Assembly (NCBI GenBank): GCA_025356275.1
Contig: JANXUK010000095.1
Coordinates: 1 to 44,288 of the forward strand
Source: Sphingomonadales bacterium
GTDB lineage: Bacteria > Pseudomonadota > Alphaproteobacteria > Sphingomonadales > Sphingomonadaceae
Reading direction: 5' to 3'
DNA: 44,288 nucleotides
Positions 484 through 29,726 of the stretch are shown here, piece by piece; within the stretch, counting starts at the first letter, position 1, and each line of letters begins with the position of its first letter. The notes under the pieces are model-generated. The model was given only the letters and a program-made list of their open reading frames with translations. It was not told where the DNA came from and did no database searches. Both the position numbers and the translations under genes were made by a program.

Positions 484-3186
<2,703 letters not shown>

Positions 3187-4860: not shown

Positions 4861-5669
4861 TAGACGCGCTGGCGCTGACCCCGGCGGTGGCGGCGATTAT
4901 GCAAGAGGCCGCCGCGCGCGCGATCCTGCCCCATTATCAGCGCCTGACCGCCAGCCAGATCATCGAAAAGGCCGCCGATGACCTCGTCACCATCGCCGAC
5001 CGTGAGAGCGAGGCGATCCTGGCCGACGGCCTTGCGCGGCTGCTCCCGGAGGCGGCGATTGTCGGTGAGGAGGCCGCGTTTGCCGATCCCACGGTTCTGG
5101 CTGGGCTGAGCGGGCCGCTATGCTGGATCATCGACCCGATCGACGGGACGCATAATTACGCGCATGGCCGGCCGCCCTTCGGCATCATCATCGCGCTGGC
5201 CGATGCGGGGGAGGCGATTGCCGGCTGGATCTACGATCCGCTGAGCGGGCGGCTGTGCCATGCGGCGCGAGGCAGCGGGGCGTTTATCGACGGCAAACGG
5301 ATCACCGCACGGGCCAGCGATTCAAACCCGCCCATCGCTGCCATTTCGCTGATGTTCGCCGACTCCGCGCGGCGCGCGGCGCTCGCCAGCCATATCGCGC
5401 GCCATTACGCGCTCACCGACATCCCGCGCTGCGCCGCCGAGCAATATCCGCGCCTGTTGCTGGGCGCCAATGATGTTGCGCTGATGGAACGCACGCTGGC
5501 TTGGGATCACGCCGCCGGGGTGCTGCTGCTGAACGAGGCCGGCGGGATGGCCGCGCGAGAGGATGGCAGCGCCTACCGCGTCGACGATGCAAGGCGCGGA
5601 CTTATCGCCGCCGCCAGCCCGGCCCTGTGGGAACAGATGGCCGGGCGGCTGGCGAATTTACGCACCTAA
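4857..5669 (+). CDS. Inositol monophosphatase-family phosphatase (possible histidinol-phosphatase)
   Basis: A 270-residue Mg-dependent, Li-sensitive-type phosphatase. Metal-binding motifs are in order: GEE at residues 70-72, WIIDPIDGTHNY at about 90-101 (the DPIDGT signature), and WDHAAG near residue 210 (second IMP signature). The start is the ATG at 4857 inside the argJ stop (ATGA overlap); an earlier in-frame start would lie inside argJ. In alphaproteobacteria the same fold serves as histidinol-phosphatase HisN, inositol phosphatase or CysQ. The coupling to argJ favours an amino-acid role, but this is inference. Its last 4 bases overlap the end of the convergent trxA. Confidence 0.9.
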   Translation: MIDALALTPAVAAIMQEAAARAILPHYQRLTASQIIEKAADDLVTIADRESEAILADGLARLLPEAAIVGEEAAFADPTVLAGLSGPLCWIIDPIDGTHNYAHGRPPFGIIIALADAGEAIAGWIYDPLSGRLCHAARGSGAFIDGKRITARASDSNPPIAAISLMFADSARRAALASHIARHYALTDIPRCAAEQYPRLLLGANDVALMERTLAWDHAAGVLLLNEAGGMAAREDGSAYRVDDARRGLIAAASPALWEQMAGRLANLRT

Positions 5670-5986
5670 AGCGCGGCTTCCAGCCAGCCCTTAAGCTGAC
5701 CCTTGGGCGCCGCGCCCAGCTTTTGTGCGACCGGCTTGCCATCCTTGAACAGGATCATCAGCGGGATCGACTGGACGTTGAACTGCGGCGGGATCGTGGT
5801 GTTTTCCATGATGTCCATCTTGGCGATGGTGACCTTGCCGGCCAGTTCCTCGCTGATTTCCTCCAGCGCGGGGGCGATCATCTTGCATGGCCCGCACCAG
5901 TCGGCCCAGAAATCGACCAGCACCGGCGTGCCGGCCCCCAGCACATCATAGGCAAAGCTGGCGTCGGTTACCTTGATCGTGGCCAT
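5666..5986 (-). CDS. trxA: Thioredoxin
   Basis: A 106-residue cytoplasmic thioredoxin with the redox centre WCGPC at residues 30-34, the VDFWADW strand before it and the cis-proline loop SIPLM. It reduces disulfides in client proteins using electrons from thioredoxin reductase. ATG at 5986 has a strong AGGAGA ribosome site. It was evidently the last gene of the addB-addA-trxA minus-strand operon, but a transposon now separates it from addA. A promoter-like pair remains in its 5' leader (see 6008-6035). Confidence 0.97.
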   Translation of the reverse strand: MATIKVTDASFAYDVLGAGTPVLVDFWADWCGPCKMIAPALEEISEELAGKVTIAKMDIMENTTIPPQFNVQSIPLMILFKDGKPVAQKLGAAPKGQLKGWLEAAL

Positions 5987-6039: not shown

Positions 6040-6047
6040 CGCTTGTC
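6040..6047. repeat. Left 8-bp target-site duplication
   Basis: CGCTTGTC lies directly outside the left end of the transposon and is repeated exactly at 9456-9463, directly outside the right end. An 8-bp duplication is typical of IS1- and IS1595-type DDE elements. It marks the insertion point between trxA and addA. Confidence 0.93.
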
Positions 6048-6066
6048 GGGACTGCATCACTTTGAA
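6048..6066 (+). repeat. Left terminal inverted repeat
   Basis: A 19-bp end beginning GGGACTGCATCACT. It pairs with 9437-9455 with one mismatch at position 15 (T versus C). Homology stops abruptly after position 19. Confidence 0.93.
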
Positions 6067-6137
6067 TGTGGCAGGCTAACCCTATCGCCATCCGCGCTAT
6101 GAGCCTATATGCTTAGCGTGAAGCATGGGGAGCGCGC

Positions 6138-6494
6138 ATGGCGGCGGATAAAATACCGGTTGATTCGACAATCGAGAGCGTCTGGACTCGTCTTACGCAT
6201 CAACGGAAATATGTCAGCGGCGTGCTCAGCGCTATGCGCAGGTGCCGTGCTGAGCACGGCGAGGCATCCGTTCGCATAGGAATAACGGGCAGCGGGCAAA
6301 AGCCATACTATCGTGTCTTTTGCCCCAAGGTCGATTGCGGCGAGACGATCTTCGGGTCTTTTTACGACAATCACGATCCATTGGAGAATGCATTTGCTCA
6401 GACCTACAATTGGAGCGTCTGCTCAATGACGTTTGCCGAACTGGAAGACTTCTACGCTGCTCAAATTGGTTATTCAGGGAAAAGGCCGCTCTGA
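6138..6494 (+). CDS. Transposon cargo protein of unknown function, 118 aa
   Basis: First gene inside the transposon. The ATG at 6138 follows GGGGAG at a good distance. The 118-residue soluble protein has no signal peptide or membrane segment. It contains CPKVDCGETIFG, a CxxxxC pair that might be structural or bind metal, and an aromatic C-terminal half with an acidic stretch (FAELEDFYAAQ). I do not recognise a family. Its stop overlaps the next start by one base (TGATG), so the two are translationally coupled and probably work together. Confidence 0.65.
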   Translation: MAADKIPVDSTIESVWTRLTHQRKYVSGVLSAMRRCRAEHGEASVRIGITGSGQKPYYRVFCPKVDCGETIFGSFYDNHDPLENAFAQTYNWSVCSMTFAELEDFYAAQIGYSGKRPL

Positions 6495-6724
6495 TGCCTA
6501 AAACACCGACCGGCGCGAAACGCCCAGCCGACGTAATCGGCAACGCCGTGCACGTTATGCGCGTTCTGACGGGCGAGGCTGACGATGATGCGCCAGACGA
6601 TGGGAAGGACAAAGCGGCGCAATCGATGGGCCGCAAGGGCGGCGCGGCGAGGGCCGCGTCGATGACGCCAGAGCGGCGGGCGGAGATTGCCAAGGGGGCG
6701 GCGGCGAAGCGGTGGAGCAAATAG
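6494..6724 (+). CDS. Small basic KGG-like protein, transposon cargo
   Basis: A 76-residue protein starting at the ATG overlapping the previous stop. Residues 1-40 hold an acidic middle (GEADDDAPDDGKD). The C-terminal half reads MGRKGGAARAASMTPERR, then AEIAKGAAAKRWSK. That is strongly basic and resembles the KGG/GsiB-type stress-protein motif (xxDPEKxxEIAxKGG) and the many short alphaproteobacterial proteins ending in ERRAEIAKKAAxxRW. Such tails suggest nucleic-acid contact, which is inference. It is coupled to the 118-residue protein upstream. Confidence 0.65.
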   Translation: MPKTPTGAKRPADVIGNAVHVMRVLTGEADDDAPDDGKDKAAQSMGRKGGAARAASMTPERRAEIAKGAAAKRWSK

Positions 6725-6735
6725 GCACTTGACCC

Positions 6736-6777
6736 GGTCACTTTTTGTCGCCACGATCGAGATGGCAAAAGGTGACC
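6736..6777. promoter_or_regulatory. Inverted repeat over the start region of the two-gene cargo operon
   Basis: GGTCACTTTTTG (6736-6747) and CAAAAGGTGACC (6766-6777) are inverted repeats matching at 11 of 12 positions with an 18-bp gap. They lie between the end of the KGG-like gene and the GTG start at 6790, and overlap a loose promoter-like pair (TTGACC 6729-6734, then CACGAT after 17 bp). The operon encodes an XRE-type DNA-binding domain, so this is a plausible autoregulatory operator. An mRNA hairpin is the alternative. Confidence 0.4.
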
Positions 6778-6789
6778 AAGGGGGCTTTC

Positions 6790-7428
6790 GTGGCTGTTGT
6801 TGTCCGTGAAGAATCGTGGGACGTTGATCGCCGCCTAAGGGAACTCGGCCTAAATCGGGCGGGCCTTAATTCGGCGATTCGCGCCGCCGTTGCCGCCGTT
6901 GCAGGTTGCACTGATAATTCCCCTCCAACAGCGCGAGGCTTAATGGCTTGGTTTGCAGGCGTGGTGCGCTTGCGGGAGGAGTTTGGCATGCACGGGTGGG
7001 TACGAGACGATACCGCCAACTTCTCCACAATCATTAATCATAGGCAATTGGCGAAGATAGCTGTCGCAAACACTGACGACGCCACAGGCAATGTTCGAGT
7101 TTTCCCTACAAATCGATCAAAGAAAGGTGAATTGGGAAAACAAGCCGCTTTTCTTAATCAATTACGTCTGCCATTTGATGGCTGGTCGGCAGAACCCGAT
7201 GAGGCCAAAATTCCGGGTTTTGCGACGTGGTATTTGTGCATCTATGTTAATGAAGAAACTGTTCGGGCCGAGCTTTCATTACCAACTCGAATTGAGAACG
7301 GATTTTTTGCTGACTGGAGCGAGCGCATTATCCTCGTCGCCAATGACGATGGCTGGCGTCGCACGGCGTCACCAGACGTTGATGAAGGCGACGGGCCGGA
7401 GTTCCAGGTTATCGTCAGTCGAAAGTAA
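6790..7428 (+). CDS. Unknown cargo protein paired with an XRE-ImmA peptidase
   Basis: I chose GTG at 6790 because AAGGGGG sits five to six bases upstream; TTG at 6745 or GTG at 6772 would add up to 15 residues. The 212-residue protein is soluble. Its N-terminal third is helical with a conserved-looking MAWFAGVVRLREEFGMHGWVR segment split by several tryptophans. The C-terminal half has a mixed strand pattern (FATWYLCIYVNEETVRAEL) ending in VIVSRK. I recognise no named family. The gene lies 4 bp upstream of the XRE-ImmA gene, so the two form one operon. It could be the toxin, antitoxin or peptidase target of that pair. Codon use is more AT-rich than in host genes. Confidence 0.7.
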   Translation: MAVVVREESWDVDRRLRELGLNRAGLNSAIRAAVAAVAGCTDNSPPTARGLMAWFAGVVRLREEFGMHGWVRDDTANFSTIINHRQLAKIAVANTDDATGNVRVFPTNRSKKGELGKQAAFLNQLRLPFDGWSAEPDEAKIPGFATWYLCIYVNEETVRAELSLPTRIENGFFADWSERIILVANDDGWRRTASPDVDEGDGPEFQVIVSRK

Positions 7429-7432
7429 GTTT

Positions 7433-8515
7433 ATGTTCAGTGGACAGCGCCTGAGACTTGCTCGGCGTCGAAAAGGCCTTTCCAAAAAGGGGCTGGCCGA
7501 AGCATTAGCTATGCACCCTCGCACCGTTACCCGGTGGGAGGATGACGACCGCTCTCCTACCGACGCAGAACTTGATAAGATTTGCGCTATCCTAGGGTTC
7601 TCTAGAGATTTCTTCTTCGGTGAAGAAATCGATGAGGCGGATGTCGAAGCTGCCAGTTTTCGATCCCTATCGAGTATGCCGGCCCGGTATCGTGATGCGG
7701 CGCTGGCCGCTGGATCGTTTGGCTTTATTTTTGGAGACTGGGTGGAGGATAGGTTTAATTTGCCCGCCCTTGATCTGGAAGACCTTTCCGGCGAGACCCC
7801 CGATGGGGCGGCGCGCGCTTTGCGAGAAAAATGGGGGATTGGAGAAAAGCCCATCTCTCACATGCTTAATCTCTTAGAATCAAAGGGAGTCAGGGTTTTT
7901 TCACTGGCTGAGGATACCGATACCGTCGATGCGTTTTCGATGTGGAGGCGCAATAAGGCGTATGTTTTTCTGAACTGCATAAAGACTGCGGAGCATCAGC
8001 GGTTTGATGCAGCACATGAGCTTGGGCATTTGGTACTACACAAGCATGGGGGTCCGCGTGGCCGAGAGGCCGAGCATGAGGCTAATCAATTTGCGTCTTC
8101 ATTCCTCATGCCAAGGTCCGACGTATTAGCACAACTTTCATATGTTGATACCTTGGACAAATTAATTGCCCATAAAAAGAGATGGAAAGTCTCACTGGCG
8201 GCGCTTAATCATCGCGTACATAAGTTAGGAATGACTAGCGAATGGGAATATAGGACGTTCTGTATTCAAATTCAACAAATGGGCTATCGTAAGATTGAGC
8301 CGAGGGGGATCGATAGAGAAACGTCGTCTGCTTGGCAGCAGGTTTTATCGGATCTTCGTAATGACAAGATCACAAAGAGCAAAATAGCCGATGATTTGGC
8401 GTTGCCTACGCACGAAATTGAAAACTTGGTGTTTGGTCTTGCCAACATGCTGAGCGTTGAAGGCGGTGGCGCTGGAGACGGCGTCAAGCGCGGAAAGCTT
8501 GCGCTCGTGCATTGA
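7433..8515 (+). CDS. XRE-family HTH fused to ImmA/IrrE metallopeptidase
   Basis: A 360-residue protein with two recognisable domains. Residues 4-60 form an XRE helix-turn-helix (QRLRLARRRKGLSKKGLAEAL, HPRTVTRWE). Residues about 130-230 form an ImmA/IrrE zinc peptidase, with HELGH at 195-199 and a probable third ligand Glu216 in HEANQFASSFLMP. ImmA cleaves the ICEBs1 repressor and IrrE/DdrO-type pairs cleave an XRE repressor after DNA damage; here both activities may lie in one chain. A helical C-terminal tail (230-360) of unknown role follows. ATG at 7433 fits the HTH start; the frame is open further upstream, but that part overlaps the preceding gene. AT-rich compared with the flanks, consistent with transfer on the transposon. 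Confidence 0.92.
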   Translation: MFSGQRLRLARRRKGLSKKGLAEALAMHPRTVTRWEDDDRSPTDAELDKICAILGFSRDFFFGEEIDEADVEAASFRSLSSMPARYRDAALAAGSFGFIFGDWVEDRFNLPALDLEDLSGETPDGAARALREKWGIGEKPISHMLNLLESKGVRVFSLAEDTDTVDAFSMWRRNKAYVFLNCIKTAEHQRFDAAHELGHLVLHKHGGPRGREAEHEANQFASSFLMPRSDVLAQLSYVDTLDKLIAHKKRWKVSLAALNHRVHKLGMTSEWEYRTFCIQIQQMGYRKIEPRGIDRETSSAWQQVLSDLRNDKITKSKIADDLALPTHEIENLVFGLANMLSVEGGGAGDGVKRGKLALVH

Positions 8516-8555
8516 ACATTTATGCTTGACGTCATGCATCGGAGTCCATATAGAA

Positions 8556-9446
8556 ATGGGCATGAGAAAGCTCGCCCCCAAAGCCCGCGTCCAAATCCTC
8601 AACCTTCTGTGCGAGGGCATGTCGATGCGCGCCGTCGCCCGGATCGCCGATGTCAGCTTCAACACTGTCGCAAAGCTGCTAATCGACGCGGGCACCGTCT
8701 GCGCCGAAATGCACGACGAAATGGTGCGGAACGTGAAGGCGAGCCGCATCCAGTGCGATGAGATTTGGGCGTTCAATTACTGCAAGCAAAAGTCGGTGGC
8801 ATCGGCGAAATCCGCGCCTGCCGACGCTGGCGATATTTGGACGTGGACGGGCATCGACGCCGATAGCAAACTCATTGTCAGCTACCTTGTCGGCGATCGG
8901 TCGGGCGAGACGGCAATCGAACTTATGGACGATCTGCGCTCGCGGCTCGCCAATCGCGCCCAGCTTTCGACCGATGGGCACCGTGCCTACCTAGAAGCCA
9001 TTGAGGGCGCGTTTGGTGCCGATGTGGATTATGCTCAGATCATCAAGCTCTATGGCCCAACAATCGACAAAGGCGGTCGCTACAGCCCTGCCGAATGCAC
9101 CGGCATCAAGAAGGTGCGCGTCGAGGGAAATCCCGACATCGCCCATGTCTCGACCTCGTTCGTCGAGGCGCACAACAAAACGATGCGGATGCATATGCGC
9201 CGCTTTACCCGCCTCACCAATGGCCACAGCAAGAAAGTCGCCAATCACGCGCACATGGTCGCGCTCTACACTATGTTCTACAATTTCATTCGGACCCATT
9301 CCAAGCTGCGCATGTCACCCGCAATGGCCGCTGGCATCGCCGATACGTTCATGGGCTTCGAAGCCATCCTGGCGCGGATCGATGCCGCGCAAGCTCCGAA
9401 GGCTCGCGGCCCGTACAAAAAGTGCGCCCCGGTGATTTCAGAGTGA
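8556..9446 (+). CDS. IS1-like DDE transposase
   Basis: A 296-residue transposase. The N-terminus has a helix-turn-helix (GMSMRAVARIADVSFNTVAKLL, about 21-42). The catalytic triad is visible as Asp68 (QCDEIW), Asp140 (STDGH) and Glu204 (SFVEAHN), followed by RRFTRLTNGHSKK and YNFIRTHSKL. This matches the single-frame IS1-family type. I chose ATG at 8556, with GGAG 11 bp upstream; ATG at 8562 is an alternative. It presumably recognises the GGGACTGC ends at 6048 and 9455. The stop codon lies inside the right terminal repeat. All catalytic residues are present, so the element is potentially active. Confidence 0.93.
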   Translation: MGMRKLAPKARVQILNLLCEGMSMRAVARIADVSFNTVAKLLIDAGTVCAEMHDEMVRNVKASRIQCDEIWAFNYCKQKSVASAKSAPADAGDIWTWTGIDADSKLIVSYLVGDRSGETAIELMDDLRSRLANRAQLSTDGHRAYLEAIEGAFGADVDYAQIIKLYGPTIDKGGRYSPAECTGIKKVRVEGNPDIAHVSTSFVEAHNKTMRMHMRRFTRLTNGHSKKVANHAHMVALYTMFYNFIRTHSKLRMSPAMAAGIADTFMGFEAILARIDAAQAPKARGPYKKCAPVISE

Positions 9447-9455
9447 TGCAGTCCC
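9437..9455 (-). repeat. Right terminal inverted repeat
   Basis: Inverse copy of the left end (TTCAGAGTGATGCAGTCCC on the + strand), 18/19 identical to 6048-6066. It contains the transposase stop codon. Confidence 0.93.
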
Positions 9456-9463
9456 CGCTTGTC
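9456..9463. repeat. Right 8-bp target-site duplication
   Basis: CGCTTGTC, identical to 6040-6047. Its last two bases are part of the addA stop codon (9462-9464), so the duplication kept the addA stop intact. Confidence 0.93.
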
Positions 9464-12400
9464 ACAAGATTTGCGGCGTGACCGGCAAGCTGGCCTTGTG
9501 TAGCGCGATGACATCGGCGGGGATTTCGATCAGCAGCGGTTCCTGGGTATACAGCAACGCCGCATCCACGCTGCGCCCCGGATAGGCCGCGCTCAGGGCC
9601 GCCGCATAGGCCGCCATCTGGCGCAGCGCCGCCAATGGCACCCCGGCCAGATCGGTGGGCGGGCGCCGCGCGGTCTTGAAATCGACCAGCCTGATCCGCT
9701 CCGCCCCGATCAGCAACCGGTCGATCGTACCGGTGATCACCTGCCCGCCCACCAGCGCCGCAATCGGCACCTCGGCCAGGGCGTCCGGCCCGAACAGATC
9801 GGTCCAGCGCGGATCGCCGATCACGCGTAGCGCGGCCCCGGCCATCTCGGCATGCGCCGCCGCATCGAGATCGGGCGCCATGCGCGCCAGCCAGCCTTGC
9901 GCCGCCGCCTCGCGCACATCCGGCGCGGTATCAGGCAGACGCTCCAACAACCGATGGATAAGCGTGCCGCGCCGCGCGGTTTCCTTGGGCGCCGCCCCGG
10001 CCAGCGGCGGATCGGCCGACAGATCCTCGCCCAAAGCCGACGGCACCAAGGGCCGCGCCGGCACCGGCTCATCACCCGGCGCGCGGGTCAGCCAGCCGGG
10101 CAGCGCCGGGTCGAACGGCAATTCCATGCTGGCTGCCGCGCCGGCCGGCATTACCGGCAAAGTCCCGCGCTCCAGCCGCGTGCCCCAGATCGGGTCCTCC
10201 ACGAGCGCCCCCGCGCCCCACATCGCGGCCAGCTGCGCATACCAGCTGCCGGGCGCAGGCTCCTTTTCGCGCGCGCCCAACGCCCCGCAGACGTACAGCG
10301 CCTCCTCGGCCCGGGTCATCGCCACATAGAGCAGCCGCCAATGCTCCTCGCCCTCGGACTTCGCGGCGGCCAGCGCCGCCTCGGCAATCGGCCCAAGCCG
10401 CTCGTGCTTGGCCAGCGGCGGCAAAGGCACGCGGCGCGGGGCTTCATCGCCGCCGATCACGCTGGCCGGGTCGATCAGGGCCAGGGGCGACGCGCGCGCC
10501 GTATCCGGGTTGGCAGCGGCATCGGCAAGGATGACGATCGGCGCCTGCAACCCCTTGGCGCCATGCACGGTCATCACCCGCACCGCGCCGTGCTCGCGCC
10601 CGGCCTCACGCTTCAACTCGCCGTCGCCGGCATCGAACCACGCGAGGAACCCGGCAAGGCTGGGTGTCGCGGTGGCGGCAAAGGCGTGTGCGGCATTGAT
10701 CAGCTCATCGATCGGATCGTTCGCCTCGCGCCCCAGCCGCGCTACCAGCGCCTCCCGCCCGCGCCACGGCCCGACCAGCAGCCAATGCAGGAGCGCCTGC
10801 ACGGGCTGGAAATCGGCGCGCGCCAGCAATCCGCCCAACCGCTCCATCGCCATCGCCACCTCGGCATGGCTGCTGCGCCGCAGATGGCTCCACAAATGTG
10901 TCCGCTCGGGGCGATAGCCATGGGCCAGCAATTGCTCCTGACTCCAGCCGATCAGCGGCGACACCAGCAGCGCCGCCAGATTGAGGTCATCGAGCGGCTG
11001 CGCGGCAAAGCGCAACGCCGCCACCAGATCGCGCACTGCCAATGGCGCGCCCAGCCTCAGTCGGTCCACCCCGGCCACCGCCACCCCGGCCGCATGCAGC
11101 CGCGCGACGATCAGCCCGGCCAGCTCCTTGCGCTTGCGGACCAGCACCATGACGTCGCCCTCATGCGCGCGGCGTGGCGGATCGCCGGGCTTCAGCCCCT
11201 TGAGCAGCGGGAAGCCATTGGCTTTCCAAGCCGCAACCTGCCGCGCGATGCGGTTGGCCAGCTCCCGGTCGGGCTTGCCCAGCCAGCGTTCGGCACCCTC
11301 ATCGGCGTCTTCGGTATCGTCGCTGGCGCCAATCGGCTGGAGCAGCGCGACATAGCCGGGGCGCACCTCGCCCACATGCCGCTCGGGCGCTGTGGCCAGG
11401 CCGAAGCGCGCATGACCAACATGCGCAATAGTCGCATCGACGAAATCGAGCACCGGGGCCGCAGTGCGGAAACTCTGCCCCAACCCCAGTTCCTGCAAAT
11501 CGCGCGCATCGGGCCCGCCGCGCAGGATCGCCGCATTGTCGGAGGCGCCGCGCATCGCGGCTGCCACCCGCGCGCGGGCATCTTCGAAGTTCTCAGGCGA
11601 TGTGCCCTGAAAGCCGAAGATCGCCTGCTTGTAATCCCCCACCACGAACAATGTGCGGATACGGTCGCCCCGCGCGCCTTCGCCGGCAAAGAAATCGCCG
11701 GTCAGCGCATCGATGATCCGCCATTGCGCGGCATTGGTATCCTGCGCCTCATCGACCAGCAGGTGATCGAAGCGGCGATCCAGCTTATAGCGAATCCACT
11801 CCGACATCTCCGATCGGCCCAGCAATTCGGCGGCGCGGCGGATCTGGTCGTCGAAATCGATCAGCCCCTCGCGCGCCTTCGCCTCCTCCCACGCCAGCGC
11901 ATAGGCCCGGCCCAGTTCAAGCGCGGGCGTCAGCCAGCCAGCCAGCGCGATCAGCGCCGCCGCCTCGCGCACCGCAAGGATGTATTCGCCAACGCGGGCC
12001 GCATAGTCGGCATAATCGGGGGTCAGTTTTTCGAGCGCGACGGCCTTGCGCTCCTCGCCGGTCTTGGTGAAAAACACGTCGAACAGATCGTCGATCAGCG
12101 ACGCGCGCTCCGCCGCATCCCCGGCCAGCCAACCGCCAATCCGCGCCGCCGCCGCCAGACCGGTCTTGGTGCCCCATTGCGTCTGCACCGCCATGCAACC
12201 CCGCAGCGACGCGACATCGAACACGCCATCCTCGCACAGCGCCGCCACGCTGTCCGCATCGGCATCCGCCGCCAGCCCGAGCAGGCCGTTCACCCGCTCC
12301 CGCAAGGCCCCCTGCCACGCCCCCGGCCCCAGCCACAGATCGCGCGCCGACGCACAGGTCAGCAGATACGCCTCGACCGCATCCGGCCCCATCCGCAGCG

Positions 12401-12950
12401 ACAGCGATGCGACGGCATCGAGCATCGCCGCATCGCCTGTCGCCTCGGCATCGAGCAACAGATCGCCCAGCACGCGCCGCGCCAGCAATTTGCGCTCGTG
12501 ATCCTCCATCGGCCGCGCGCCGGCACTCAACCCCGCCTCGCTGGGGAACGCCGCCAGCAGCCATTGCGCAAAGGCGTGGATCGTATCGATCCGCAGGCCT
12601 CCTCCCGGGCAATCAAGGACCGAGGCAAACAAGGTCCGCGCCCGCGCCTGCGCCTCTGGGGCGATGTCGGCGCCGATGGCCTTCAACTCGCGCGCCAGCG
12701 ACGCCGCATCCGCCCGCACCCAGCGGGCCAGCACATCGTTGATCCGCGCCGCCATCTCGGTCGCGCCGGCCTTGGTGAAGGTGAGGCACAGGATCTGGTC
12801 CGGGCTCACCCCCGGCTCCAGCAACAGCCGCAGCACCCGCGATGACAGCACCTGGGTCTTGCCGGTCCCGGCGGAGGCCGACAGCCACACCGACCGCCCC
12901 GGCGCCACCGCCAGCGCCTGATTGCCCGCAAGGGGATGGAGTCCGCTCAT
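9462..12950 (-). CDS. addA: Double-strand break repair helicase-nuclease AddA
   Basis: AddA is the UvrD-like helicase and nuclease subunit of AddAB, which resects double-strand ends and loads RecA. With the ATG at 12950 the protein is 1,162 residues. It has Walker A SASAGTGKT at about 24-32, LLVDEAQDTN (motif II), VVGDYKQAIFGFQG (motif III), VMTVHGAKGLQAPI (motif V), VAMTRAEEALY (motif VI) and a C-terminal RecB-type nuclease motif (RLVDFKTARRP). The start overlaps the addB stop as ATGA; a start at 12995 would overlap addB further without need. A transposon inserted at the very end of the gene but left the stop codon intact. Confidence 0.97.
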   Translation of the reverse strand: MSGLHPLAGNQALAVAPGRSVWLSASAGTGKTQVLSSRVLRLLLEPGVSPDQILCLTFTKAGATEMAARINDVLARWVRADAASLARELKAIGADIAPEAQARARTLFASVLDCPGGGLRIDTIHAFAQWLLAAFPSEAGLSAGARPMEDHERKLLARRVLGDLLLDAEATGDAAMLDAVASLSLRMGPDAVEAYLLTCASARDLWLGPGAWQGALRERVNGLLGLAADADADSVAALCEDGVFDVASLRGCMAVQTQWGTKTGLAAAARIGGWLAGDAAERASLIDDLFDVFFTKTGEERKAVALEKLTPDYADYAARVGEYILAVREAAALIALAGWLTPALELGRAYALAWEEAKAREGLIDFDDQIRRAAELLGRSEMSEWIRYKLDRRFDHLLVDEAQDTNAAQWRIIDALTGDFFAGEGARGDRIRTLFVVGDYKQAIFGFQGTSPENFEDARARVAAAMRGASDNAAILRGGPDARDLQELGLGQSFRTAAPVLDFVDATIAHVGHARFGLATAPERHVGEVRPGYVALLQPIGASDDTEDADEGAERWLGKPDRELANRIARQVAAWKANGFPLLKGLKPGDPPRRAHEGDVMVLVRKRKELAGLIVARLHAAGVAVAGVDRLRLGAPLAVRDLVAALRFAAQPLDDLNLAALLVSPLIGWSQEQLLAHGYRPERTHLWSHLRRSSHAEVAMAMERLGGLLARADFQPVQALLHWLLVGPWRGREALVARLGREANDPIDELINAAHAFAATATPSLAGFLAWFDAGDGELKREAGREHGAVRVMTVHGAKGLQAPIVILADAAANPDTARASPLALIDPASVIGGDEAPRRVPLPPLAKHERLGPIAEAALAAAKSEGEEHWRLLYVAMTRAEEALYVCGALGAREKEPAPGSWYAQLAAMWGAGALVEDPIWGTRLERGTLPVMPAGAAASMELPFDPALPGWLTRAPGDEPVPARPLVPSALGEDLSADPPLAGAAPKETARRGTLIHRLLERLPDTAPDVREAAAQGWLARMAPDLDAAAHAEMAGAALRVIGDPRWTDLFGPDALAEVPIAALVGGQVITGTIDRLLIGAERIRLVDFKTARRPPTDLAGVPLAALRQMAAYAAALSAAYPGRSVDAALLYTQEPLLIEIPADVIALHKASLPVTPQIL

Positions 12951-15900
12951 ACCGCCGCTTCCGGGCTGCTGTCCGGCGTGAGATTGGCGAACCATTCATC
13001 AAGCCGCATCAGCTGATCGTAATCGGTATAGCCACCAAGATCGGGGTTGAGCCGCGCGGTAAACGCCTCATCGCCCATGATCCAACGGGCGATGGCCTCG
13101 TCCAGAAAATCCTCGGTAACGCTGAGGAAATCCTCGGGCAGCACGCCGCTGCGTTTGCCTTCGGTGCGCAACGGCGAACCGCGCCAGCCAAAGCCGCCGG
13201 GGCGGTCCTTGGCGCGGGTCAGCGACCAATATTCGAACTGTGCCGGTACACCGTTGACACCGCGAAACCCGCCAGCCTGCGCGATCATGCCGATCAGGCC
13301 CAGTTGCAGCGCATAGCCCTGCTCCACCTTTTTGGCCGATGGCGGCGCGCCGGTTTTGTAATCGATGATGGCCAGCTGGCCGTCGCCGAGATCATCGATG
13401 CGGTCGGCGCGGCCGTGGATGCGGATGCCCCGGTGACGCATATCGCCGCGCACCTCGGTGGTGGCAACGCTTTGTCCCTTCGCGGCGAGCCCGGCGATCT
13501 CGCCATCGATCCAGCCCAGCGCCGCCAATAAGCGCGGCCGCCACAGGCTGCGCGCCAGCGGATGCGCGCTCATCCTGTCAAGCACCGCCTCGGCCGTCGG
13601 GATCAGCGTGCCCGGCCGGCCACCGGCCTTATGCCACGCATCGAGGATGTCATGCACCGCAGTACCGCGCCACGCCGGGCTGGGTTCAGCGTCCAGCCCA
13701 TCGAGCCGGCGCAGGCCGAGGATGGCCGAGGCGTAGAACTGATAAGGATCGCCGCGCAACGTATCGAGCGCGGTGACCGCAATATCGACGCGGCGCTGGG
13801 CGGCGGAAGGCATCGGCTGGGGGCGCGGAGCGGGGTCCTGTGTACGCCCCAGATCGATCGCGCGGGCCAGTGCGACGGCAGCGGTCTCGGCATGGCTGCC
13901 CCGCAATCTGGCGCCCAGCATTGCGGACACCCGCAGCACAAAGCGCGAGGCGATCACCGGCCCGCCCTCATCGCGCCGCGCCCAGCTCAGCACGACTTGC
14001 GGTGCGCCCAAAGCCCCGGCCAGATCATGCGCGGCCAGGCCAATGCGCATCTCGGCGCCGGGCACCCCCAGATGGCGTAGCACGGCGGGCGGCAGCAGCG
14101 CGTCGGGCGCCGGGCTGGCGGGCCAGACGCCCTCGGTCAGGCCGCCGCAGATGACCAGATCGGCGCGCGCCATCCGCGCTTCCAACAGGCCGAGGATCGC
14201 GACGCGCGGATGCCCGCCCCATGGCGGACGCACCGCGCTGCGGTCCATCGCCTCGCGCAACACGGATGGCAGTTCGCGCGCGGGTAGCACCGTGCCGGCG
14301 GCCTGTGCGGCGGTGCGCAGGTCCTCCACAAACGCCGAGAGCGCGCGGCCATCGGCATTCGCCCACAGCCCCTCGCCGCACAGCGCCTCGCCAGCAGCGG
14401 CAAGCGCGGTCAACTGATCGGCGAGCTGAGCCTCTTCGGGCAGCGCGAGCAACGGTGCCAGCGCTGCCTCAACCTCGCCCCACCACGCCAGCATCGCGAG
14501 GTTCTCCCGGCGATCATGCGCGGCTGGGACCAAGGCCGCCAGCGGCGCCAGACCCGGCCCCGGACGCGGTCCGCGCAGCATCAGATCGAGGCTCCGCACC
14601 TGCTCCAGCCACGCCGGCCGCGCCGCCCCGGCACGCACCAGCGGATGGCCCAGCAACGCCACCAGAGGCACCGGCGCCGCCCCCTCGCCCAGCACCTCGG
14701 CCAGCAGTAGGAGCACGCGCCCGGCGGCGGTCTGCGGCAGCGGCTGCCCCGCCGAATCATCGGCCACAATGCCCCAGCGCAGCAGATGCGCCACCACCCG
14801 GCTGGCCAGACCCCGGTCGGGCGTGACCAGCGCAACCCGGCGTTCCGGGGTCTCCAGCGCCTCGCGGATCAGGATGGCGATGGCCTGCGCCTCCTCGCCC
14901 GGATGCGCGCTTTCCATCAGCCGCACGCCTGACAGGCGCCGGCGGTCCTCGGGCAGATCGGCCCAGGTCGCCGAGGCAGCGGGCGGCAGAAACAGGCTGG
15001 AGATCGCACGGCTGCGTGCAGGCGGCGCGGCGGACGGCCCGGCGCGGTGCCACGCCCGCACCTCACCGCGCGCGACGCCCATGCGGGCCAGCAGCAGCTT
15101 GAGATGGTATTGCGGATGCGTCGCCGCGTCGCCGCGCCCAAACGCCGGCTCGCCGGGCGCAGGTGGCGTGCCGGCACGGCCCAGCTCATCCCACACCGCA
15201 TCCTCAAGCGCGAGGTCGAGATCGGGCAGGATCACCGCCCCACCCGGCAACTCGGACACCACGCGTAACAACCGCGCCAATGCCGGCGAAGCGCTGGTGA
15301 CGCCAGCCGCGACGATCGGATGCGCCGGCGGCGATGCGCGCCATTGCCGGGCCGCGCGGGCGAACAGCAAGTTGCGCCGATCGGGCGGATCGACCTCCCC
15401 CCGCGCCTGCAACTCCGCCAGCCAATGTTGGTGCAACCGCAGGAAGGCGAGCGTAGTGGCGCGCCAGTGATCAGCCTCACCGCCGACCAGCGCCACCACC
15501 TCGGGCGACAGCAGCGCGGTAGGCGCGATGCCCTCCACCGCCAGCCGGTCGATGGTGCGCGCCGCCTCATAGGCGCGGCGGAGAAGCGCGGCGCCGCGCG
15601 GGGCCTCATCGCCCTCGATCTGCGAGATCAGCGCGGCCAGCCGCAGCCAGCGCTTTGTGCGATCAGCCGCCGGGGGAATCGCGGCATCCGCATCCAGCGG
15701 ATCGAGCAGCGGCCCCAGCGCCTCGTCCAGATCGAGATCGCCCACCGCCACCATGCGCGGCAACAGCAAGCCGCCATCCTGCGCGGCGCGAATGAAAGCC
15801 TCGGTAATAGTGCGCGCGGCACGCTGGCTCGGCACCAGCAGCGTCAGCCGCGCCAGCCCCAGATCGCCCCCGCCGTAACGCGGGATCAGCCCCGCCACCA

Positions 15901-29649: not shown

Positions 29650-29726
29650 TGGTGCGCCCGGAACGATTCGAACGTCCGACCCTCAGATTCGTAGTCTGAT
29701 GCTCTATCCAGCTGAGCTACGGGCGC
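29650..29726 (-). tRNA. tRNA-Arg (anticodon ACG)
   Basis: A 77-nt tRNA on the minus strand with a 7-bp acceptor stem GCGCCCG/CGGGCGC, D-arm TAGCTCAGCTGGATAGAGCA, anticodon stem-loop CAGACTACGAATCTG (anticodon ACG, read as inosine-CG after editing), T-arm GGACGTTCGAATCGTTC and an encoded CCA. It decodes CGU, CGC and CGA. It is preceded by mutT on the same strand. Confidence 0.96.

Follow-up and report, generated by a model that had tools for sequence, protein, structure and literature searches.

A 3.4-kb transposon with an IS1-like transposase and a predicted RosmerTA cargo, and its relatives with differing cargo genes

Positions 6048–9455 of the DNA analysed here, a 44,288-nt contig from a Sphingomonadales bacterium (the window), are best read as a complete transporter insertion sequence (tIS) with an IS1-like transposase, whose predicted RosmerTA toxin-antitoxin (TA) cargo likely moves with it as a unit (Table 1). 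We put the probability of this reading, which includes a shared control through palindromes and an abortive defence by the cargo, at about 85%. The element is 3408 bp long and, in the ORF list of the window, contains the transposase gene and four other genes, in agreement with the gene count of the initial annotation.

Table 1. Features of the element and its insertion site in the window
Feature	Coordinates	Strand	Remarks
8-bp target site duplication, left copy CGCTTGTC	6040..6047	.	Exact repeat; no insert here in congeners
Left terminal inverted repeat GGGACTGCATCACTTTGAA (GGnnnTG end)	6048..6066	+	Similar ends delimit relatives
Left palindrome ATGCTTAGCGTGAAGCAT	6109..6126	.	Predicted operator before leader genes
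ORF A, 118 aa	6138..6494	+	No family above threshold
ORF B, 76 aa	6494..6724	+	Conserved hallmark gene, KRPADV...KGGxARA...EIAxxAAxxRW
rmrT, 212 aa, predicted RosmerTA toxin	6790..7428	+	PADLOC RmrT, E 5.7e-43
rmrA, 360 aa, predicted antitoxin, XRE + Peptidase_M78 (ImmA/IrrE)	7433..8515	+	PADLOC RmrA, 9.9e-140; Pfam PF06114, 4e-21
Right palindrome ATGCTTGACGTCATGCAT (1 mismatch)	8522..8539	.	Overlaps predicted -35 TTGACG (8526-8531)
IS1-like DDE transposase, 296 aa	8556..9446	+	Relatives suggest start at 8562
Right terminal inverted repeat (18/19)	9437..9455	-	Overlaps transposase gene end
8-bp target site duplication, right copy	9456..9463	.	Overlaps addA stop codon (9462-9464)

The terminal inverted repeats differ at a single position, both ends of the element read GGGACTG, and the duplication is exact over all eight bases and directly abuts the element on both sides, confirming the repeats and the duplication that had been reported at first sight. 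When up to three mismatches were allowed, the 19-mer end had two matches in the window, exactly the two ends, whereas 100 shuffles gave no match. Across the 3.18-Mb genome assembly as a whole there were likewise two matches, so that the element is single-copy by its ends. A composite transposon made of two flanking IS copies was rejected, because there are just two occurrences of the end sequence in the window, with a single transposase between them.

The transposase is encoded in one intact reading frame, and the three catalytic residues ascribed to it earlier (D68, D140, and E204) were invariant in an alignment of 24 sequences. Its score with Pfam DDE_Tnp_IS1 (PF03400) was 26.2 bits, narrowly above the cut-off of 24.1, whereas that with the nearest NCBIfam model, IS1 (NF033558), was 65.2 bits, below the cut-off of 100; the description "IS1-like" is correct, if loose. 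A weak HTH_7 match was also found inside the transposase. An IS1595-type transposase was rejected (NF033547, 18.1 bits against a cut-off of 75; no ISXO2-type Pfam match up to E = 1), as were Tn3 and Tn7-like transposons, since the five ORFs gave no resolvase or TnsABC-type match above the cut-off in Pfam and NCBIfam. In the IS1 family, the target duplication is about 8–9 bp, and classical IS1 elements are about 0.7–1.2 kb long (IS1 itself, about 0.8 kb) and contain transposase genes only. The element fits this family in its 8-bp duplication and its GGnnnTG ends, which PMC6807381 names as an IS1-family feature, and it exceeds the classical size and gene content.

Loci with relatives of the transposase (86, the window included) were collected from genomes of the species, from samples of the family, order, and class, and from plasmid records. 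A match was present in 26 of 397 genomes of the family, 19 of 296 of the order, and 46 of 385 of the class, with the window's own genome counted each time; mainly full-length matches were taken from these samples, and four of the 22 matching plasmid records were taken. Both ends could be set for 59 of the 86 loci, which gave 56 unique elements after three duplicates were dropped, 48 with a target duplication of 7–8 of 8 bases and eight with ends only. No ends were recognized in the other 27 loci; in 16 of these, the sequence ahead of the transposase is shorter than 2.5 kb or the locus ends at the transposase. A like end test was passed by 37 of 80 loci in viral contigs (the best 80 of 140 confirmed loci), bringing the delimited elements to 93 (296 kb together). 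In the control, none of 300 mismatched flank pairs reached an inverted repeat of at least 15/22 with a duplication of at least 7/8. Ends of the same kind were thus found in relatives, with like or differing cargo, as the initial annotation had suggested looking for; the refuting case that it had set, a chance match seen in no other copy, did not occur. The duplication is exact (8/8) in 80 of the 85 elements with 7–8 of 8 bases duplicated; at these 85 sites, the first duplicated base tends to be C/G and the eighth G/C, which indicates a weak and symmetric preference in target choice.

The 56 elements from genomes and plasmids range from 2047 to 7195 bp (median 3232), and each of them carries at least one further ORF of at least 85 aa. 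The carriage of cargo, which had been called unusual, is therefore the rule in this family, with one cargo-less 1.3-kb element among the 37 from viral contigs. This element (L173, 1323 bp) contains ORF B and the transposase without room for cargo, and is possibly a minimal form of the family; all the other delimited elements, those of viral contigs included, measure 2.0–7.2 kb.

Judging from the compared sequences, what the elements of the family have in common is the ends, ORF B, the transposase, and, in many of them, one or two palindromes; ORF A is variable, as is the cargo lying between ORF B and the transposase gene. ORF B had no match in Pfam or NCBIfam, and one of its relatives is annotated as histone H1 in a plasmid record; a protein search yielded at least 7991 relatives among the 7998 candidates scored. 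The ORF B profile matched 54 of the 56 elements (the exceptions being the distant L020 and L085) and 35 of the 37 viral-contig elements. At the delimited loci, two duplicate loci included, 41 matches fell inside the element and none outside. In the 385 class genomes, a transposase match lay within 4 kb of 30 of the 37 strongest ORF B matches and of 40 of all 60; the remaining 20 were mostly weak. In turn, ORF B lay within 4 kb of 30 of 33 full-length transposases, and two of the three misses were less than 1 kb from a contig end on that side. The cargo slot is the interval from ORF B to the transposase, and in 53 of the 54 elements with ORF B it contains an ORF of at least 60 aa; the position of ORF A is variable among relatives. 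In L115 (element positions 730–1812, minus strand), an ORF B-like KGG/ARA domain is fused N-terminally to a 360-aa cargo protein.

The slot of the window's element holds rmrT and rmrA, which are 4 nt apart. As in RosmerTA, an RmrA with HTH and M78 domains adjoins RmrT, and both PADLOC models were matched, so the two genes are predicted to form an anti-phage TA pair of this type. The model of RmrT bears a weak resemblance to PD-(D/E)XK nuclease folds. The RmrT lineage is rare, with any homologue found in seven of the 385 class genomes, the window's included. RosmerTA is described in PMC12322248 as diverse, with two tested Streptococcus homologues inefficient against most phages. Unlike RosmerTA as known, the predicted pair of the window rides a minimal transposon.

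XRE-ImmA genes were present in 25 of the 56 elements and 11 of the 37 viral-contig elements. At E 1e-10, these 36 of 93 elements (296 kb) compare with no match in 833 kb of their own flanks, although weaker matches do occur outside elements. On the basis of PADLOC counts and partner genes, 12 of the 25 were assigned to RmrA and 13 to PD-Lambda-2_B; single RmrA models match 12 to 16, and RmrT models match up to nine proteins of three types. The PD-Lambda-2_B matches are all in relatives and not in the window; two partner representatives tested gave no PADLOC match, one of them being HigB-like in Pfam. Other cargo comprises Fic/SoFic (L014), GNAT (L006), a ParA-like ATPase (L007), HigB-like proteins (seven elements assigned by sequence cluster, of which one was tested in Pfam), BRO-N with PDC-S13 (L009 and, by cluster, L098), AAA/nSTAND-like ATPases (L010; L091 by cluster), serine-protease-like proteins (L125; L123 by cluster), and P63C domain proteins (L118; L095 by cluster). 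The distant relative L020 carries a helicase-methyltransferase, and L085 (7195 bp), whose transposase is 34% identical, has like ends and an 8-bp duplication without mismatch; its cargo is a gene pair for type III restriction-modification. Many cargo genes matched nothing in the libraries tried.

Exchange of cargo was evident within one genome, where the transposases of L091 and L095 are 97% identical and the main cargo is unrelated. The DNA of these two elements is similar over the first 88 bp, near ORF B, and over a final stretch that begins 34 bp ahead of the transposase and runs to the right end, with homology picking up again at the right palindrome. A like pattern at 92% was observed between L067 (RosmerTA) and L068 (other cargo). 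Cargo changes were also counted on a quick transposase tree of the 56 elements. RmrA cargo required 12 changes for 12 rows, against a shuffled mean of 11.1, and starred branches force nine of these changes; PD-Lambda-2-like cargo was clustered, with seven changes against a shuffled mean of 12.0. The three cargo classes together required 19 changes against a shuffled mean of 22.2, a count as low being reached in nine of 200 shuffles. The unrelated cargo beside near-identical transposases and the tree counts together indicate that cargo is often swapped, with some clade preference.

The frequency of XRE-ImmA cargo, and the TA-like character of some other cargo (GNAT, Fic, and HigB), would also suit a TA pair whose role is addiction to the element or control of its transposition, with phage defence incidental; the TA pairs of Tn3-family transposons have been proposed as part of the transposition module (PMC7157771). 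However, RmrA cargo appears and disappears across the transposase tree, as a fixed role in transposition would not, the constant partner is ORF B and not the TA pair, and the two distant relatives carry cargo that is not of the TA type. We rate this alternative as conceivable but somewhat improbable.

In the tIS with defence cargo that we favour, the transposase would bind both GGGACTG ends and cut out or copy the whole segment, which would then insert at an 8-bp staggered cut, as the ends, the duplications, and the empty sites described below suggest. Homology predicts that RmrA would restrain RmrT until phage infection, and that the cargo would thereby give abortive defence and make loss of the element costly. 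That the element is instead a static relic, inserted once and no longer moving, is unlikely: its single copy in the genome and the one position at which its ends differ would agree with immobility, but the frame and catalytic residues of the transposase are intact, the duplication is exact, the ends still match at 18/19, and one genome has a relative of 2047 bp as identical copies on two contigs; the right flanks of these copies differ, and their left flanks are lost at contig ends.

The insertion lies between trxA (5666–5986, minus strand) and addA (9462–12995, minus strand; named after the initial annotation). Since the duplication reaches into the stop codon of addA with its final bases, the frames of both genes are intact, and trxA is cut off from its upstream sequence. 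With the joined flanks as a query, matches were obtained in 39 of the 99 genomes searched in the genus (that of the window among them), and 11 loci from other genomes were taken from these for comparison. The empty trxA–addA junction that the initial annotation had proposed to look for was found in all 11 congeneric loci, whose flanks aligned without an insert at 71–76% identity and which lack both the cargo genes and the repeats. The notion that the cargo consists of old chromosomal genes of the locus between chance repeats is refuted by these empty sites, is opposed by the repeat's lack of matches in shuffles and by the GC content of the element (0.55) below that of its flanks (0.64 and 0.67), had no evidence in its favour, and deserves practically no credence. 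Inside addA, ARAGORN listed a tRNA-Ile (aat; 10095–10182, minus strand), which is probably a false call because Rfam did not list it; a tRNA at 29650–29726 was listed by both programs.

The palindrome ATGCTTNNNNNNAAGCAT at 6109–6126 recurs with one mismatch at 8522–8539, and two copies were found in none of 100 shuffles. A predicted -10 element, TATAGA (8549–8554), follows TTGACG after a 17-bp spacer and is so close to the start codon that the transposase mRNA may be nearly leaderless. A consensus promoter scan, which found three promoter-like sites against 2.6 expected, did not list this site. The palindrome is present in 36 of the 93 elements (30 left, 24 right, and 18 both), with one match in the 833 kb of flanks; left copies mostly lie 50–70 bp from the end, and right copies lie close to the transposase start. 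Copies so placed, close to the left end or ahead of the transposase, suggest a shared control. We presume that one element-encoded regulator, with ORF B as the best candidate, acts at the left palindrome and at the -35 palindrome of the transposase, and would likely set the level of both transcripts. Such a circuit would not be universal, as the palindrome occurs in only 36 of 93 elements. In type 2 elements that lack it, such as L076, L081, L082, and L121, inspection by eye showed AAACTGAC and GTCAGTT flanking the transposase promoter region. Both motifs match the core of the terminal repeats, suggesting autoregulation by the transposase in these elements.

The element is related to the IS1 family by its matches to IS1 models, its GGnnnTG ends, and its short target duplication, and differs from classical IS1 in that its family has ORF B and a cargo slot and makes the transposase from one frame. 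The ISfinder database has an IS1 subgroup, ISMhu11, with members reaching several kilobases, which we presume may include relatives of the present family. The tIS is an established category in IS1595 and other families, as set out in PMC3129680, PMC9330008, and PMC7986276, so the element is not a new kind (PMC3129680 and PMC9330008). It shares with the tIS of these three sources one transposase, IS-type ends, and passenger genes unrelated to transposition, which are presumably dispensable for it; unlike IS1595 tIS, its transposase reaches 18 bits, against a cut-off of 75, with the NCBIfam IS1595 model. Like the Tn3-family transposons with TA pairs in PMC7157771, it is small and has a TA pair adjoining the transposition genes, but it has no resolvase match, a different transposase, and a cargo that is interchangeable in its family. 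Tn7-like transposons resemble the family in that their cargo is enriched for genes of defence and TA systems (PMC8649781), whereas the window's element has one transposase, no targeting proteins, and a length of 3.4 kb.

The initial annotation had proposed an undescribed transporter IS. The category was already known, while the fixed ORF B and the defence-rich slot look like an undescribed variant of it: neither was found described in the open-library papers searched, a set apart from the standard IS papers and ISfinder, and no described tIS with a constant ORF B and an operator pair was found. We regard as an even bet the broader proposal that the family is a large, undescribed group of IS1-type mini-transposons acting as defence shuttles, in which the constant ORF B and twin operators would control the transposase and an interchangeable slot, and the slot would repeatedly capture TA and other anti-phage genes and spread single defence systems one by one among bacteria, plasmids, and the genomes of phages. 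The routes by which single defence systems and TA pairs pass from genome to genome are a standing problem, and many of the answers given involve phages, plasmids, or large transposons; a 2–4-kb element with clear ends is a minimal and testable vehicle. The ends also delimit candidate new defence genes, since the slots of the relatives hold many genes of unknown family that can be screened directly.

The genome of the window contains a second transposase of the family (L004; G000 contig C13:888-1754), which is 71% identical and lies near a contig start. This locus, which the contig start truncates, carries the C-terminal part of an ORF B, a different cargo gene before the transposase, and a right end of the family type.
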